Shown here piece after piece: positions 13,248-20,570 of a DNA stretch of 45,448 nucleotides (positions within the stretch are counted from its first letter, which is position 1; the number at the start of each line of letters is the position of its first letter). The notes below the pieces were generated by a model that saw nothing but the letters and a program-made list of their open reading frames with translations, was not told where the DNA came from and searched no databases. The stretch comes from Rhizobium sp. Q54 (GTDB lineage Bacteria; Pseudomonadota; Alphaproteobacteria; ATCC43930; CGMCC-115725), in the NCBI GenBank assembly GCA_945861155.1, contig CAMATN010000027.1:1-45448 (forward strand). The letters run 5' to 3'. Made by a program: the position numbers and the translations under genes.

Positions 13248-14615
13248 TCAGCGCGGCTCCACCGTGACCATGATGCCGTGGCGCGGGCGCAGCGTGGTCC
13301 AGGCGGTCGGCTCGATCGCCTGACCGGGAACGAGGCGAAAGCGGAACCGCGCCGCCAGGATCGCCACCGTGATCAGGATCTCGTTGATCGCCAGCGCGGC
13401 GCCCGGGCAGACATGCGGCCCGACGCCGAACGGGATGTACGAATAGCGCGGGCGCGCGCCGGCCCGCTCCGGGCTGAAGCGGTCGGGGTCGAAACGGTCC
13501 GGGTCGGCCCACAATTTGCGGTGGCGGTGCACGACCCACGGCATCACCGCGACGACCGACCCGCGCGGGACCCGATGCCCGCTCACCGTGTCGTCGGCCG
13601 CGGCGGTGCGCAAGGTCAGCGGCAGCGGCGGATAGAGCCGCATCGTCTCGTCCACCAGCTGGCGCAGATAGACGAGCTTCGGCAGGTCGTCGGGAGCCGG
13701 GGTGCGCCCGCCGAGCACGTCGTCAAGCTCGGCATGCAGCTTCTGCTCGGCCCAGGGGTGCATCGCCAGCAGGTACCACAGCCAGGTCATCGCGCGCAGC
13801 GGCGTTGCCGCCGTCGCCGAGAGGGTCAGGACCTCGTCGCGGATTTCCGCGGTCGTCAGCGTCTGGCCGGTCTGGCGGTCTGGTGTGGTCGCCATGCGCC
13901 ACAACAAATCCTTGCCGCCGGCATAGTCTGGGCGGCGCCGTTCCGCGACCAGCCGATCGAGCAGCGCGTAATATTTGTCGACCCCGCTTCGGCCGCGGCG
14001 CCAGCGCTCGACAAAGCGCAGCCGGCGCGGCGTCGGCAGCACGTCGAGGATGCTGTATTTCTCCGGATAGCGCCCCATCCGCAGCACCATCTCGTCGATC
14101 CCGGGCTCGTCGCCGGCCCAGACGTACCCGGTCGTGCGCGTGATCAGATGCTGCAAGGTGCGGCCGATTTCGAGCGGCTGGCCCTGCGGGACCGCCGCCA
14201 ATAGCCGCGCCATGTGCTCGGTCAACTCGATCAGGGTCGGCAGGTCGGGACGCAGCGCGCGCTGGTCGAGCGCCGGGTTGATGATCCGGCGATGGCGCCA
14301 CCACGCCTCGCCTTCGAGGCAGACCATGCCGCCGCGCGAGCTGAACTCGAAGATCCGCCGGATCGCGCCGATGCGGTGGTAATTGTCGGTATTGTCCTGC
14401 AACACGCGCCGCATGCCGTCGGGATCGCTGACAACGAACACCCGCCCCCAGAAAAAGCGGCGCTCGACGAATAATTCCTCGAACAGCTCGTCGTCGCAGG
14501 CGGCGAGCGAATTGATCGGAAAAATCCTGATCAGCGCGAGCGTCGAGAGGCCGCGCGCCGGCCGCGGCGGCATCGCCAATGCCGGCGCTGATTCGGTTTT
14601 GTGGACGAGTGTCAC
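13248..14615 (-). CDS. Cytochrome P450 (second of a tandem pair)
   Basis: A 455-residue soluble P450. Present are the C-helix WWRHRR, the K-helix E323-TM-R326 (DETMRLYPPL), the DPDRFDPDRF meander and the haem loop FGVGPHVCPG with Cys403. In the I-helix the usual A-G-x-(D/E)-T-T is replaced by ATAATP (residues 267-272): the acid is Ala and the following Thr is kept. This should weaken the normal proton relay for O2 activation. Substrate and redox partners are unknown; no ferredoxin is adjacent. It follows the first P450 by 16 bases, so they form an operon. Confidence 0.93.
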   Translation of the reverse strand: MTLVHKTESAPALAMPPRPARGLSTLALIRIFPINSLAACDDELFEELFVERRFFWGRVFVVSDPDGMRRVLQDNTDNYHRIGAIRRIFEFSSRGGMVCLEGEAWWRHRRIINPALDQRALRPDLPTLIELTEHMARLLAAVPQGQPLEIGRTLQHLITRTTGYVWAGDEPGIDEMVLRMGRYPEKYSILDVLPTPRRLRFVERWRRGRSGVDKYYALLDRLVAERRRPDYAGGKDLLWRMATTPDRQTGQTLTTAEIRDEVLTLSATAATPLRAMTWLWYLLAMHPWAEQKLHAELDDVLGGRTPAPDDLPKLVYLRQLVDETMRLYPPLPLTLRTAAADDTVSGHRVPRGSVVAVMPWVVHRHRKLWADPDRFDPDRFSPERAGARPRYSYIPFGVGPHVCPGAALAINEILITVAILAARFRFRLVPGQAIEPTAWTTLRPRHGIMVTVEPR

Positions 14616-14631
14616 CGGCGCCTTCCCGCCT

Positions 14632-16029
14632 TCAGGCCACGCGGCTCGGGACCGCGAGGCGCGGTTCGAGCGTCATCCACATGCCGCCTTTGGGCCGGAT
14701 GTTGGTCCAGGCGGTCGGCTCGATCGCGCGCCCGGGGACCAGGCGAAAGCGGAAATGCCGCGCCAGCACCGCGACGGCGACGATCAGTTGCAGCATCGCC
14801 ATCGACGCGCCGACGCAGACATGCGGACCGACCGCGAACGGCAGGTAGGCATAGCGCGAGCGCGAAGCGATCTCGGCGGGCGCGAAGCGGTCGGGATCGA
14901 ACCGGTCGGGATCGCGCCACAATTTGCGGTGGCGATGCACCACCCACGGCATGATCGCGACGATCGCGTTGCGCGGAATGCGACGGCCGGACACTGTGTC
15001 TTCTGCCAAGGCGCGACGCATCATCATGATCGGCAGCGGCGGGTAGAGCCGCATCGTCTCGTCGAGCAGCTGGCGCAGATAGGGGAGCTTCGCGAGGTCG
15101 CCGACGCCCGGCCGGCGGCTACCGATGACCTCATCGAGCTCGGCGTGGAGCTTTTCCTCGGCCTCGGGATGGGTCGCCAGCAGGTACCAGACCCACGGCA
15201 GCGGGCGCAGCGAGGTCGCCGAGGTCGCGCCCAGGGTCAGGATCTCGTCGTGCAATTCGGCGGTGGTGAGGCCCTCGCCGGTGTCGCGGTCGCGCGCGTT
15301 GACCAGCCGCCACAGCAGGTCCCTGCGACCGGCATAGTTCTCGCTCCGCCGTTCCTCGATCAGCCGGTCGAGCACCGGCGCAAAGCGCGCCGCCTCGATC
15401 CGGGTCTTGCGGTAGCAGTCGAGAAAGCGCAGCCACCCCGGCGTCGTCAGCAGGTCGAGGGCGCCATAAGGTCCGGGATATTGTCCCATGCGGTCGATCA
15501 TCGGGTCGATCGCGCGGTCGGCGCCGGCAAAGACATGACCTGCCGACAGCGTGACCAGATGGCGGAAAGCGTCGTGCAGATCGATGCCCTGCCCGGCCGG
15601 AATCGCCGCGAGGTGGCGCGCCATCTCCTCGGCCAGATCGATCATGACCGGGCCGTCGGGCAACATCGCGCGGTGGTCGAGAGTCGGGTTGATCAGCCGG
15701 CGGTGCCGCCGCCACGGCGCCCCCTCGGCATGCAGCATCCCGCTGCCCGCGGCGAATTCGAAGACCCGGCGAATCCAGGTCAGGCGGGGATAATTGTCGA
15801 CATTGTCCTGCATCACCCGGCGGATGCCGTCGGGGTCGCTGATCACGAAATACCGCTGTCCAAAGAGACGGCGCTCGACGACCAGCTCGTCGAACAGTTC
15901 CTCGTCGCACGCCGCCAGCGAGTTGTCCCGCGCGACGCGCAGCAGCCGCAACGTCGAAAGCGGCCGCGCCGGGCGCGGCGGCATCGCCGGCAAGTCCGGC
16001 CAAGGATCGATCCCGTCGGCGGTAGTCAT
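14632..16029 (-). CDS. Cytochrome P450 (first of a tandem pair)
   Basis: A 465-residue P450 closely related to its downstream neighbour; both share WVVHRHRKLW, EPTAWT and the same domain order. K-helix E324-TM-R327, FDPDRF, and haem loop FAVGPHVCVG with Cys405 are present. The I-helix reads ATSATS (268-273), again with Ala where Asp or Glu is expected. ATG 16029 has AAGGGA upstream at long spacing. The pair probably arose by duplication and may act on related substrates or successively on one. The upstream gap 16030-16341 contains only a repeat pair. Confidence 0.93.
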   Translation of the reverse strand: MTTADGIDPWPDLPAMPPRPARPLSTLRLLRVARDNSLAACDEELFDELVVERRLFGQRYFVISDPDGIRRVMQDNVDNYPRLTWIRRVFEFAAGSGMLHAEGAPWRRHRRLINPTLDHRAMLPDGPVMIDLAEEMARHLAAIPAGQGIDLHDAFRHLVTLSAGHVFAGADRAIDPMIDRMGQYPGPYGALDLLTTPGWLRFLDCYRKTRIEAARFAPVLDRLIEERRSENYAGRRDLLWRLVNARDRDTGEGLTTAELHDEILTLGATSATSLRPLPWVWYLLATHPEAEEKLHAELDEVIGSRRPGVGDLAKLPYLRQLLDETMRLYPPLPIMMMRRALAEDTVSGRRIPRNAIVAIMPWVVHRHRKLWRDPDRFDPDRFAPAEIASRSRYAYLPFAVGPHVCVGASMAMLQLIVAVAVLARHFRFRLVPGRAIEPTAWTNIRPKGGMWMTLEPRLAVPSRVA

Positions 16030-16120: not shown

Positions 16121-16237
16121 TGCGTCCTTCGAGACGCCCGCTGCGCGGGCTCCTCAGGATGAGGAACGTTCTTAATCCCATCGTTATCTTACCTCATCCT
16201 GAGGAGCGCCCCGGAAGGGGTGCGTCTCGAAGGACGC
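16121..16237. repeat. Inverted pair of family A repeats
   Basis: Arms 16121-16164 (GCGTCCTTCGAGACGCCCGC, reverse orientation) and 16192-16237 (CCTCATCCTGAGGAGCGCCC) flank a 27-base AT-richer centre. Each arm matches the unit at 19-61. With this pair, the 312-base gap 16030-16341 between the divergent P450 and deacetylase genes is largely explained; the remainder (16238-16341) shows no clear element. Confidence 0.75.
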
Positions 16238-16341
16238 TACCGCGCCTCTGCAATCGATCTGTTCTCCGTCTTCGGCACCGGCCGTGCGCGCGACCGCGGG
16301 TTTGTGCGACACTGGCGTCCACCCCGTTCTCGGTGATCGCA

Positions 16342-17271
16342 ATGACGACGCTGCTCTATACCCATCCGGCCTGCCTCGAACACGACCCAGGGCGCCATCA
16401 TCCCGAATCGCCTTCGCGCCTGCGGGCGGTGCTCGATGCGCTCGACGGGCCGGATTTCGCCCGGCTCGAACGGCGCGAGGCGCCCGAAGCCGCGCTCGAC
16501 GACATCGCAAGGGTACATCCGCGCCGCTTTGTCGAGCGCCTGCTCGCCGCAGCGCCCGAATCCGGCCATGCCGCCATCGACGCCGACACGATCCTGTCGC
16601 CGGGATCGGGACGCGCCGCGTTGCGCGCCGCCGGAGCGGTCGTTGCCGCGGTCGACGCGGTCGTGGCGGGCGAGGCAGACAATGCCTTTTGCGCGGTGCG
16701 CCCGCCCGGCCATCACGCCGAGCCCGGCCGGGCGATGGGGTTTTGCCTGTTCAACAACGTCGCGATCGGGGCGCTCAGGGCGCGCGAGGCGCACGGCATC
16801 GGCCGCGTCGCGGTCGTTGATTTCGACGTGCATCACGGCAACGGCACGCAGGCCTGCTTCTGGGACGACGACAGCCTGTTCTACGCCTCGACCCATCAGT
16901 TTCCGCTCTATCCCGGCACCGGCGCGGCGAGCGAAACCGGGGTTGGCAACATCGTCAACGTGCCGTTGCGCCCGATGGCCGGGTCGCGCGAGTTCCGGCT
17001 CGGCGTCGCGCGCCAGATCCTGCCTGCGCTCGATTCGTTCCGGCCCGAGCTGCTGCTGATCTCGGCCGGGTTCGACGCCCACAAAAGCGACCCGCTCGCG
17101 CAACTGATGCTCGACGAGACCGATTACACCTGGGTAACCGAGCAGCTGCTGGACGTCGCTCGCCGGCATGCCGGGGGCCGGGTCGTCTCGACGCTCGAGG
17201 GCGGTTACGATCTGGCTGGGCTCGGCGCCAGCGCGGCGGCTCACGTCGCCGTACTGATGGCGGGGCGCTGA
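16342..17271 (+). CDS. Histone deacetylase family protein (class II-like deacetylase)
   Basis: A 309-residue zinc amidohydrolase of the arginase/deacetylase fold. Catalytic features are RPPGHHAEP (His124, His125), FDVHHGNGT with the metal ligands Asp162 and His164, SAGFDAHKSDPL with the third ligand Asp, and the late EGGYDL Tyr loop. Bacterial members remove acetyl groups from lysine, polyamines or other small amides; which one applies here is not visible. ATG 16342 was chosen to match the family start TLLYTHPACLEHDPG; GTG 16333 is possible. xseB follows after 143 bases, so it may be separately transcribed. Confidence 0.92.
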   Translation: MTTLLYTHPACLEHDPGRHHPESPSRLRAVLDALDGPDFARLERREAPEAALDDIARVHPRRFVERLLAAAPESGHAAIDADTILSPGSGRAALRAAGAVVAAVDAVVAGEADNAFCAVRPPGHHAEPGRAMGFCLFNNVAIGALRAREAHGIGRVAVVDFDVHHGNGTQACFWDDDSLFYASTHQFPLYPGTGAASETGVGNIVNVPLRPMAGSREFRLGVARQILPALDSFRPELLLISAGFDAHKSDPLAQLMLDETDYTWVTEQLLDVARRHAGGRVVSTLEGGYDLAGLGASAAAHVAVLMAGR

Positions 17272-17283
17272 TGGCCGGGCGCT
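17256..17283. repeat. Tandem 14-base duplication at a stop codon
   Basis: GATGGCGGGGCGCT and GATGGCCGGGCGCT are adjacent, with a partial third copy GATGGCG. The deacetylase stop codon (17269-17271) spans the junction of copies one and two. A small slippage duplication; no function suggested. Confidence 0.6.
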
Positions 17284-17414
17284 GATGGCGGTGTGAGCAA
17301 AGCTGTTGTAATTTCGCAACGAAGACGGGTATTCGCGCGTTTGGATAGGGAACGCGCGCTGTATCCGCCTTTGCATCGTGTTGAGTAGAGCCATTGTGTG
17401 CAAACAGGGTGCCG

Positions 17415-17666
17415 ATGAGCGATCCGATAGAGGCCGCGGATGTCGCGGCGATGAGCTTTGAGGACGCGCTTGCCGAATTGGAGCAGATCGTGCGGCGACT
17501 GGAGGCCGGACAGGTCAAGCTCGACGACGCGATCCTATGCTACGAGCGGGGAGCCCAGCTGAAGCGCCATTGCGAACAGAAGCTCAATGAGGCGCAGCAG
17601 CGCGTCGATCGCATCGTGATTGGGGCCGACGGCGCGGTCGGCGCCGAGCCGGCAAAGCTCGATTGA
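17415..17666 (+). CDS. xseB: Exodeoxyribonuclease VII small subunit
   Basis: An 83-residue XseB. The core MSFEDALAELEQIVRRLEAG, followed by AILCYERGAQLKRHCEQKL, is the family coiled-coil helix pair that binds XseA. The enzyme degrades single-stranded DNA in both directions. The start at ATG 17415 (MSDPIEAADV) agrees with the family; an earlier in-frame start at 17394 lacks support. ispA follows 39 bases downstream, the standard xseB-ispA-dxs order. The large subunit xseA is not in this window. Confidence 0.93.
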   Translation: MSDPIEAADVAAMSFEDALAELEQIVRRLEAGQVKLDDAILCYERGAQLKRHCEQKLNEAQQRVDRIVIGADGAVGAEPAKLD

Positions 17667-17705
17667 GAGGATGCGGCTCGCGATGAAGCTGGTCCGAGAG
17701 GCAAA

Positions 17706-18617
17706 TTGACCGAGAGCCTGTGGCCCGATGACGTCGCGCTGGCCGAAGCGAGCGCCGAAACGATTCGGCTGACCGATGGGTTGATCGAGCGCCTGCTCGT
17801 CGTGCCGCCCGGGCGCGAGGCGCGGGTTTACGACGCGATGCGGTACTCGGCGCTGGCTCCGGGAAAGCGGCTGCGGCCCTTGCTGGTGCTGGCCGGTTCG
17901 CGGCTCTTCGGCGTCCCCCGGCGCAGCGCGCTGCAGGTTGCCGCCGCGATCGAGATGGTCCATGCCTATTCGCTGATCCATGACGATCTGCCGGCGATGG
18001 ACGACAGCGATTTGCGGCGCGGCCGGCCGACCTGCCACAAGGAATTCGACGACGCGACCGCAATCCTGGCCGGCGACGGGCTGTTGACGATGGCCTTTGA
18101 GGTGCTGGCGCACCCCGACACCCACGGCGATCCGGCGGTCCGCGTGGAACTGGTCGCAGCGCTGGCGATCGCGGCCGGCGCGGCCGGCATGGTTGGCGGC
18201 CAGATGATCGACCTGATCGCCGAGACAGAGACGCTCGATATCGCCGCGATCACGCGGCTGCAGCGCATGAAGACCGGTGCGCTGATCGCGTTTTCCTGCG
18301 AGGCGGGCGCGATCCTGGCCAAGGCGGCGGGCGACAACCGAACCCGGCTGCGCGGCTTCGCGCACGATCTCGGGCTCGCCTTCCAGATCGCCGACGATCT
18401 GCTCGACGTCGAGGGCTCGGCCGCCGAAACCGGAAAGCCGGTCGGGGTCGACGCCGCCGCCGGCAAAGCGACCTTCGTGTCGATCCTCGGGGTTGAGCGG
18501 GCCCGTGCCCAGGCCGATCTCCTGGTCGGCCAAGCCGTTGCCCATCTTGATTTTTTCGAACAACGCGCGGAACTTTTACGACAAGTGGCACGATTTGTCG
18601 TAAACCGGCGCACGTGA
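17706..18617 (+). CDS. ispA: Farnesyl/geranyl diphosphate synthase (polyprenyl synthetase)
   Basis: A 303-residue short-chain prenyl synthase that condenses isopentenyl diphosphate with allylic diphosphates. The first aspartate-rich motif is HDDLPAMDD (from residue 92) and the second is DDLLD (230-234) in FQIADDLLDVEG. GKRLRPLL and GQMIDL are also family blocks. It starts at TTG 17706 with GAGAGG just upstream. The product, farnesyl diphosphate, feeds ubiquinone, undecaprenyl and hopanoid synthesis, which fits ubiK, hpnN and hpnK elsewhere in the window. dxs follows almost directly. Confidence 0.94.
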   Translation: MTESLWPDDVALAEASAETIRLTDGLIERLLVVPPGREARVYDAMRYSALAPGKRLRPLLVLAGSRLFGVPRRSALQVAAAIEMVHAYSLIHDDLPAMDDSDLRRGRPTCHKEFDDATAILAGDGLLTMAFEVLAHPDTHGDPAVRVELVAALAIAAGAAGMVGGQMIDLIAETETLDIAAITRLQRMKTGALIAFSCEAGAILAKAAGDNRTRLRGFAHDLGLAFQIADDLLDVEGSAAETGKPVGVDAAAGKATFVSILGVERARAQADLLVGQAVAHLDFFEQRAELLRQVARFVVNRRT

Positions 18618-18632
18618 TTGAGGAGCCCAGCC

Positions 18633-20570
18633 TTGGATCAGAAGCCCCTCCACATTTCCAACCGGACGCCGCTGCTCGATCGGATCAACGTGCCGGCCGA
18701 TCTGCGGCGCTTCCCCGAATCCGATCTGCGGCAGATCTCCGACGAATTGCGCGCCGAATTGATCGACGCCGTGTCGATCACCGGCGGCCATTTCGGCGCC
18801 GGGCTCGGGGTCGTTGAGCTGACCGTCGCGCTGCACCATGTCTTCGAGACGCCGCACGACCGGCTGATCTGGGATGTCGGGCACCAAGCCTATCCGCACA
18901 AGATCCTGACCGGACGGCGCGACCGCATCCGCACGATCCGCCAGGGCGGCGGCCTCTCGGGCTTCACCAAGCGCTCCGAGAGCGAATACGACCCGTTCGG
19001 CGCGGCGCACAGCTCGACCTCGATCTCGGCCGGGCTCGGCATGGCGGTCGCGCGCGACTTCAAGGGCGAGCGCCGCAACGTCATCGCGGTAATCGGCGAC
19101 GGCGCGATGAGCGCAGGGATGGCCTATGAGGCGATGAACAACGCCGGGTCGATGGATGCGCGCCTGATTGTGATCCTCAACGACAACGACATGTCGATCG
19201 CGCCGCCGGTCGGCGCGATGAGCGCCTATCTGTCGCGCCTGTTGTCGTCGAAATCGTTCTTGTCATTGCGCCATTTGGCCGGCGAGGTGGCGCGCCATCT
19301 GCCGAAGCGGCTTGAGCACGCCGCGCGGCGCGCCGAGGAATTGGCGCGCAGCTTCGTCACCGGCGGGACCCTGTTCGAGGAACTCGGCTTCTATTATGTC
19401 GGCCCGATCGACGGCCACAACATCGACCATTTGCTGCCGGTGCTGAAAAACATCCGCAACAGCACCGAGACCGGGCCGGTGCTGATCCACGTCGTGACCG
19501 AGAAGGGGCACGGCTATCTGTCGGCCGAGCAGGCCGACGACAAATGGCACAGCGTCGCCAAATTTGACGTCGTGACCGGCGCCCAGGCCAAAACGAGTTC
19601 GAAGGCGCCCTCGTACACCACCGTCTTCGCCAAATCGCTGATCCAGGAGGCCGAGAAGGACGAGCGCATCGTCGCGATCGGGGCGGCGATGCCGTCCGGC
19701 ACCGGGCTCAATTTGTTCGGCGACAAATTCCCGAAGCGCTGCTTCGATGTCGGCATCGCCGAGCAGCACGCGGTGACGTTCGCCGCCGGGCTCGCCGCCG
19801 AGGGCATGAAGCCGTTCGCGGCGATCTATTCGACCTTTCTGCAGCGCGCCTACGACCAGGTCGTGCACGATGTCGCGATCCAGAAACTGCCGGTGCGCTT
19901 TGCAATCGACCGCGCCGGGCTTGTCGGCGCCGACGGCCAGACCCATTCCGGATCGTTCGACCTGGCCTATCTCGGCGTGCTGCCGGGGTTCATCATCATG
20001 GCGGCGGGCGACGAAGCCGAACTGATGCACATGGTCGCGACCTGCGCGGCCATCGACGATGCCCCATCAGCGGTACGGTTTCCGCGCGGCGACGGGATGG
20101 GCGTGGCGATGCCTGAATTCGGCGTGCCGCTCGAGATCGGCCGCGGCCGCATCATGCGCGAGGGCACCAGCATCGCCCTCTTAAGCCTCGGCGGCCGCCT
20201 CGCGGAATGCCTTAAGGCGGCGCAGGAACTGGGCGCCTACGGGTTGTCGACGACGGTCGCGGATGCCCGGTTCGCCAAGCCCCTCGACACCGATCTGATC
20301 AACCGGCTGGTGCGCGAGCACGAGGTCGTCATCACGATCGAGGAAGGTTCGATCGGCGGTTTCGGCAGCCATGTGCTGCATTATTTGGCGACGACCGGCG
20401 CGCTCGACCACGGGCTCAAGATCCGCACGATGGTGCTGCCCGATGTGTTCCTAGAGCACGATTCGCCTGTTGCGCAATACGACACGGCCGGGCTCAACGC
20501 CCGCCACATCGTCGCCACCGCGCTGGCCGCGCTCGGCCGCGAGATCGCCGAACTGCCGGCTCGCGCCTAG
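18633..20570 (+). CDS. dxs: 1-deoxy-D-xylulose-5-phosphate synthase
   Basis: A 645-residue thiamine-diphosphate enzyme that joins pyruvate and glyceraldehyde 3-phosphate, the first step of the MEP isoprenoid pathway. N-terminal domain: [11 protein letters not shown] and the TPP/Mg site [18 protein letters not shown]. Middle domain: the catalytic Glu in [15 protein letters not shown], then [14 protein letters not shown]. The C-terminal transketolase domain ends about residue 640. TTG 18633 is preferred because GAGGAG lies 7 bases upstream; an in-frame TTG at 18618 would add five residues and overlaps the ribosome site. Length is normal. Confidence 0.95.

Follow-up and report, generated by a model that had tools for sequence, protein, structure and literature searches.

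The window analysed in this study, the whole stretch of 45,448 nucleotides from Rhizobium sp. Q54, harbors two P450 genes in tandem, both on the minus strand, with the start of P0001 lying 16 bp past the stop of P0002 (Table 1). The two proteins are 59% identical, and both display the characteristics of the P450 superfamily, namely a PF00067 (p450) match above the Pfam cut-off of 22.8 bits, the ExxR pair and a haem-ligand Cys within an FxxGxxxC loop, so that the original prediction was right in stating that the ExxR pair and the haem Cys are kept in both genes; the Trp and Arg of the C helix are likewise retained in the sequence alignments. The P450 fold was recovered for P0002 by an AlphaFold2 model and by fold matches. 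Three P450 matches were detected in the genome, the third of which, on another contig, reads AGHETT.

Table 1. Positions of the P450 pair and of its characteristic residues in the window
Feature	Positions	Strand	Evidence
P0002, upstream P450 of the pair, 465 aa, paralogue type A	14632..16029	-	PF00067, 225.7 bits
P0001, downstream P450 of the pair, 455 aa, GTG start, paralogue type B	13248..14615	-	PF00067, 198.4 bits
I-helix motif ATSATS of P0002, residues 268-273	15211..15228	-	translation, alignment
I-helix motif ATAATP of P0001, residues 267-272	13800..13817	-	translation, alignment
ExxR (ETMR, E324-R327) of P0002	15049..15060	-	sequence
ExxR (ETMR, E323-R326) of P0001	13638..13649	-	sequence
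Haem-ligand Cys405 codon of P0002 (FAVGPHVCVG)	14815..14817	-	sequence
Haem-ligand Cys403 codon of P0001 (FGVGPHVCPG)	13407..13409	-	sequence
Leu273 of P0001, helix I; Ala in 60/64 canonical rows	13797..13799	-	alignment
Ala167 of P0001, predicted E helix; Phe in 60/64 canonical rows	14115..14117	-	alignment; helix from P0002 model

The canonical P450 monooxygenase motif AGx(D/E)T was found in neither P0001 nor P0002. Both had been predicted to lack the I-helix acid, and this was confirmed, as their relatives read AGHETT where the pair reads S266-A267-T268-A269-A270-T271-P272 (P0001) and G267-A268-T269-S270-A271-T272-S273 (P0002). The alignment gives the motif region as DQVVTIFMAGHETTAVALTW in a near canonical relative (L137) and as DEVLTLSATAATPLRAMTW and DEILTLGATSATSLRPLPW in the window pair. 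No acid is placed elsewhere in the helix core of either protein, the closest being E261 and E290 in P0001, and E262 and E289 in P0002. We then consider the small subfamily to which the pair belongs, hereafter the clade. In an alignment of 73 rows (A2; 7 clade rows, 64 canonical rows and 2 other acid-less rows), the four key columns hold Ala, Gly, Asp/Glu and Thr in all 64 canonical rows, and the acid is present in 0 of the 7 clade rows. From its Asp anchor to its Trp anchor, helix I spans 20 residues in 64/64 canonical rows and 19 in six of the seven clade rows; L038 retains 20, so not every clade member has the deletion. Taking all readable clade genes, the helix is one residue short in nine of ten, the window pair included, and the motif glycine is mostly lost. 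The change thus read from the alignments is a rebuilt motif together with the loss of one residue, rather than a point substitution.

Owing to this deletion, the register of the motif is ambiguous, and the pairing of Ala with the acid and of Thr with the alcohol depends on the position of the gap. With the gap before the motif, as in the original prediction, the acid would have become Ala and the Thr would be kept; with the gap after the motif, Thr would stand at the acid position and Pro or Ser at the alcohol position. The clade members reading AGAQAP keep A-G, which favors the former register, and under either placement the acid would be absent. The proposal that Ala replaces the acid while the next Thr stays is upheld for the pair in the gap-before register, but the Thr is not conserved across the clade. 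Nor is the Ala conserved among the homologues: in ten clade sequences the acid position holds Ala in 4, Val in 4 and Gln in 2, and the position after it Thr in 7, Ala in 2 and Ser in 1 (alignment A2 instead places L038 as Ser/Pro at the acid and alcohol positions), the Thr being gone in two members, L034 and L036 type B. The motif variants of the clade include ATSATS, ATAATP, AGAQAP and STSVTS. Mean pairwise identity in the seven motif columns is 0.43, compared with 0.58 for the core, and 45 of 384 alignment windows are less conserved still, so that the motif is variable, yet not the most variable part. The dN/dS ratios (Nei-Gojobori, six pairs) fall between 0.13 and 0.34 in five pairs and are highest, at 0.56, in the window pair; the proteins are under purifying selection while the groove drifts.

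The rarity of the change was assessed in P450 frames collected by similarity to the clade, a sample that does not stand for P450s as a whole. The collected loci gave 165 frames, from which contained, shorter and X-bearing ones were removed; this left 151 of at least 380 aa, 139 with AGx(E/D)(T/S) and 12 without, and a further 26 frames from a phylum-level search displayed AGHET in all cases. Collapsing at 90% identity reduced the 177 frames to 103, of which 91 carry AGx(E/D)(T/S) and 12 do not, with the clade making up 10 of the 12. The acid is thus present in 91/93 non-clade and 0/10 clade P450s (frames under 90% identity), and its loss in the clade is not due to chance. Independent acid losses were also noticed. 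A different P450 of the same genus (L050:10461-12056, genome G021) reads AGHATT, with Glu changed to Ala and no deletion, and a P450 of genome G224 (L182:1192-2718) reads SATVTT, its acid and glycine independently lost at normal helix length.

Clade members were detected in five of the eight genomes of the genus (G000, G021, G022, G023 and G026), and in the other 31 genomes of the family the best full-length match is at most 41% identical. In a profile search, the best match outside the genus reached 3.9e-144, whereas the seven full-length members all scored 8e-228 or better, and by these scores nothing closer was found in 385 class-level and 398 phylum-level genomes, with at most four candidates scored per genome; absence outside the genus is here a judgement by score and not by motif-by-motif reading. 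A scan of genome contigs (best 80 of 116 relatives) disclosed 79 loci, comprising five clade loci and 74 at 31-34%, mostly from Mesorhizobium, and the best matches on plasmids are under 35% identity. As far as searched, the subfamily appears confined to one alphaproteobacterial genus. No paper on it was found among the open-access papers searched on the acid-alcohol pair, the I helix and CYP184A1, by title or abstract opening, those subjects and not the genus itself having been targeted.

In an IQ-TREE phylogeny of 76 rows (collapsed at 85%), nine clade rows form one group (100/100) that lies within canonical P450s from the same bacterial family and class. The SH-aLRT support of this group remains 100 when the motif columns are removed, and the acid-less label needs three changes. 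One ancestral loss would explain the clade, which supports the earlier view that the trait was ancestral to both duplicates. The canonical AGHETT P450s of the same family (L137-L141 among them) are 37-41% identical to P0002, share its haem loop and ExxR, and form with the clade one larger supported group (99/85). Unlike the clade, they display the acid, the glycine and a full-length helix I, and a tandem partner on the same contig is not among the matches listed for them.

The paralogue types are older than the species. The genome of the window (G000) harbors types A and B, G021 has one contig with D and C and a second with B and an end fragment of C, G022 has D, C and B following one another, of which D and B have broken frames, and G026 harbors type D alone, while G023 contributes the outgroup member L038, whose motif is AGGVSP with an extra residue after it. 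The tenth member, a broken gene in G022 that is too short for the tree, has the motif of the G021 type B gene and is 80% identical to it. The three-gene clade array of G022 (L036:5635-9767) has two broken frames, for which assembly error or decay is possible, this being a draft genome, 74% complete, in about 410 contigs.

Other residues have changed along with the motif. All seven clade rows carry Leu/Ile at position 273 of helix I and Ala/Thr at position 167 of helix E, and L050 and L182, acid-less without the deletion, retain Ala and Phe there. The swap looks like what repacking around a shortened helix would produce, with a presumed contact between the two positions; the branch of the clade is long, and about 30 positions in all are specific to the clade. 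The Arg/Gln at R274, one turn past the lost acid, was considered as a CYP152-like carboxylate anchor and rejected as too weak, the column reading R in 5 and Q in 2 of the 7 clade rows, and mostly N, L or V, with R in 5/64, in the canonical rows.

The AlphaFold2 model of P0002, built on the 73-row alignment (pLDDT 91.7, pTM 0.92), has helix I running from 256 to 272, broken at 273-275 and resuming to 286, and Prolines 276 and 278 may cause the break. The break need not apply to other members. A model of P0001, from 7 sequences and with a mean pLDDT of 59, was set aside. AlphaFold can also miss such breaks, as an excerpt of PMC12192976 describes for human CYP51, whose model lacks a break present in crystals. 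The solved fold nearest to P0002 is CYP184A1 (7wzl; Z 40.8, rmsd 2.5 over 428 residues, about 29% identity), and CYP184A1, CYP97 and CYP102 are the best sequence and fold matches among solved structures; unlike the window pair, 7wzl reads AGHETT.

The explanation that we favor, although we hold it as an even call, is that these are functional haem-thiolate P450s which activate O2 without the Asp/Glu-Thr relay, with protons probably coming from water, Ser/Thr or substrate. The pair are tandem paralogues of a small subfamily whose oxygen-binding groove in helix I was dismantled once, in its ancestor. As the alignments and the tree show, AGHETT there lost its acid, and in most lines its glycine, most members became one helix residue short, and the packing residues around the motif changed from Ala to Leu/Ile (helix I) and from Phe to Ala/Thr (helix E). 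By structural inference, the deletion would also have removed the usual I-helix bulge. Haem would still be bound via the Cys and electrons still accepted, because the ExxR pair, the Trp and Arg of the C helix and the FxxGxxxC loop have all been retained. Electron delivery is an assumption here, since the window's contig contains none of the ten Fer2-domain places of its own genome and no redox partner was found among the neighbors looked up on that contig and in the relatives, a subset of all neighbors; the ten places elsewhere in the genome make redox partners possible. O2 would then be activated without the relay, with an ordered water, the Ser/Thr residues of the motif or the substrate donating the second proton. 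If this protonation were slowed, peroxo or hydroperoxo chemistry, such as epoxidation and C-C cleavage, would be favored over plain hydroxylation, and an excerpt of PMC9112060 describes that breaking the acid-alcohol pair, mainly by Thr mutation, impedes the passage from Cpd 0 to Cpd I and favors epoxidation. Besides the assumed electron delivery, several observations count against this explanation: L038 keeps all 20 residues, the gap within the motif can be placed in two ways, with L038 aligned as Ser/Pro in A2, the loss of Thr in L034 and L036 type B fits poorly with ordinary O2 activation, and a gene beside L038 would suit the use of peroxide. That gene (L038:5020-5883, genome G023), cut by the contig end, encodes a GMC-family oxidoreductase and adjoins the outgroup clade P450; the GMC family includes H2O2-forming oxidases.

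Peroxide use is our second choice, and a rather doubtful one. The enzymes would be peroxygenases or hydroperoxide-metabolising enzymes in which H2O2 or an organic hydroperoxide takes over from O2 and the reductase, leaving the relay dispensable and free to decay. The absence of the acid in all ten readable members and of the alcohol in two, the drift of the motif, the lack of Fer2 on the window's contig and the GMC gene beside L038 all agree with it, and there are precedents for a changed groove in CYP152 (PMC5818669) and CYP74 (PMC10813956). According to excerpts of these and of PMC10988616, CYP152 has Arg-Pro in place of the acid-alcohol pair and a Cys loop that is said to differ, with the substrate carboxylate helping to supply the proton (PMC5818669, PMC10988616), and CYP74 has nine extra residues in its haem domain (PMC10813956). 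The clade resembles CYP152 in the absence of the acid-alcohol pair and CYP74 in its diverged I-helix groove. Unlike CYP152, it displays Ala/Val/Gln followed by Thr/Ser/Ala and an ordinary FxxGxxxC proximal loop, and the lack of the Arg-Pro pair and of the nine-residue insertion around the Cys loop rules out membership of CYP152 and CYP74, respectively, on sequence. No peroxide-forming enzyme was found among the subset of window neighbors looked up. Moreover, acid loss and peroxide use are separable, since CYP105D18 is H2O2-driven with an I helix said to be conserved in an excerpt of PMC10750395, and vertebrate CYP51 is acid-less and depends on O2/NADPH.

Vertebrate CYP51, with His at the acid position, is an ordinary O2/NADPH monooxygenase, and it is unlikely that the window pair are likewise wholly ordinary O2/NAD(P)H monooxygenases that can do without the acid. 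ATSATS and STSVTS do resemble the TSSTTS of its helix I, which appears as a 'broken' I helix in ligand-free structures (PMC12192976, in excerpt), so that the two share a polar Ser/Thr run and a tendency to a broken helix, as in the P0002 model, and the other catalytic landmarks are kept in the clade. The AGAQAP members, however, lack the alcohol too, and the one-residue deletion occurs in 0/64 canonical rows. CYP51 chains stand well below the best sequence and fold matches among those listed. We rank O2 activation, with the proton coming from water, Ser/Thr or the substrate, first, peroxide use second and a wholly ordinary enzyme third. P450nor (CYP55) has Ala-Thr at the acid-alcohol positions, in which it resembles the pair; it is not among the best matches listed (60 by sequence, 50 by fold).

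It seems quite unlikely that, with the I-helix bulge and the oxygen-activation groove both abolished by the deletion, the two or three co-encoded paralogues run chemistry without any O2 activation, for example the rearrangement of a substrate hydroperoxide or a peroxygenase design distinct from CYP152 and CYP74. That the genes are decaying, or encode haem-binding pseudoenzymes after duplication, is very improbable, for although two of three array genes have broken frames in the G022 draft, the motif drifts and the window pair has the highest dN/dS, the other five pairs show low ratios, ExxR and Cys are kept and both window copies are intact. The acid-alcohol pair is a textbook element of P450 oxygen activation, and this lineage, in which the loss was single and ancestral, canonical sisters are close and the replacements vary (ATSATS, ATAATP, AGAQAP and STSVTS), would make it possible to probe, on a natural series instead of point mutants, whether the acid, the threonine and the helix bulge are needed.

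No neighbor is common to all six clade loci. Divergent from the P450 pair, the window harbors at 16330-20570 a row of genes made up of a histone-deacetylase-family gene, a small frame that by eye is maybe xseB, a polyprenyl synthetase and DXS. The last two suggested a connection with isoprenoid chemistry, which was set aside because homologues of neither were found in L034-L038, on contigs that are short (5.9 to 20.3 kb, with 14 kb of the longest examined). In L035 and L036 the arrays are preceded by an HlyD-type adaptor and by a large protein that, by eye, resembles an RND pump, and in L034 and L037 a single gene separates the canonical P450 from those of the clade. A 421-aa protein with no Pfam match (L034:1753-3018) adjoins the clade P450 there, and the genome of the window has a 67% homologue of it (L049, about 8097) near its canonical P450. 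An inverted pair of the 15-base repeat CTCATCCTGAGGAGC was noticed at 16149-16207, where it separates the P450 pair from the divergent histone-deacetylase-like gene. The repeat looks like a REP-type dispersed palindrome and has 105 copies in the genome (56 forward and 49 reverse), against 0 for a control pattern.
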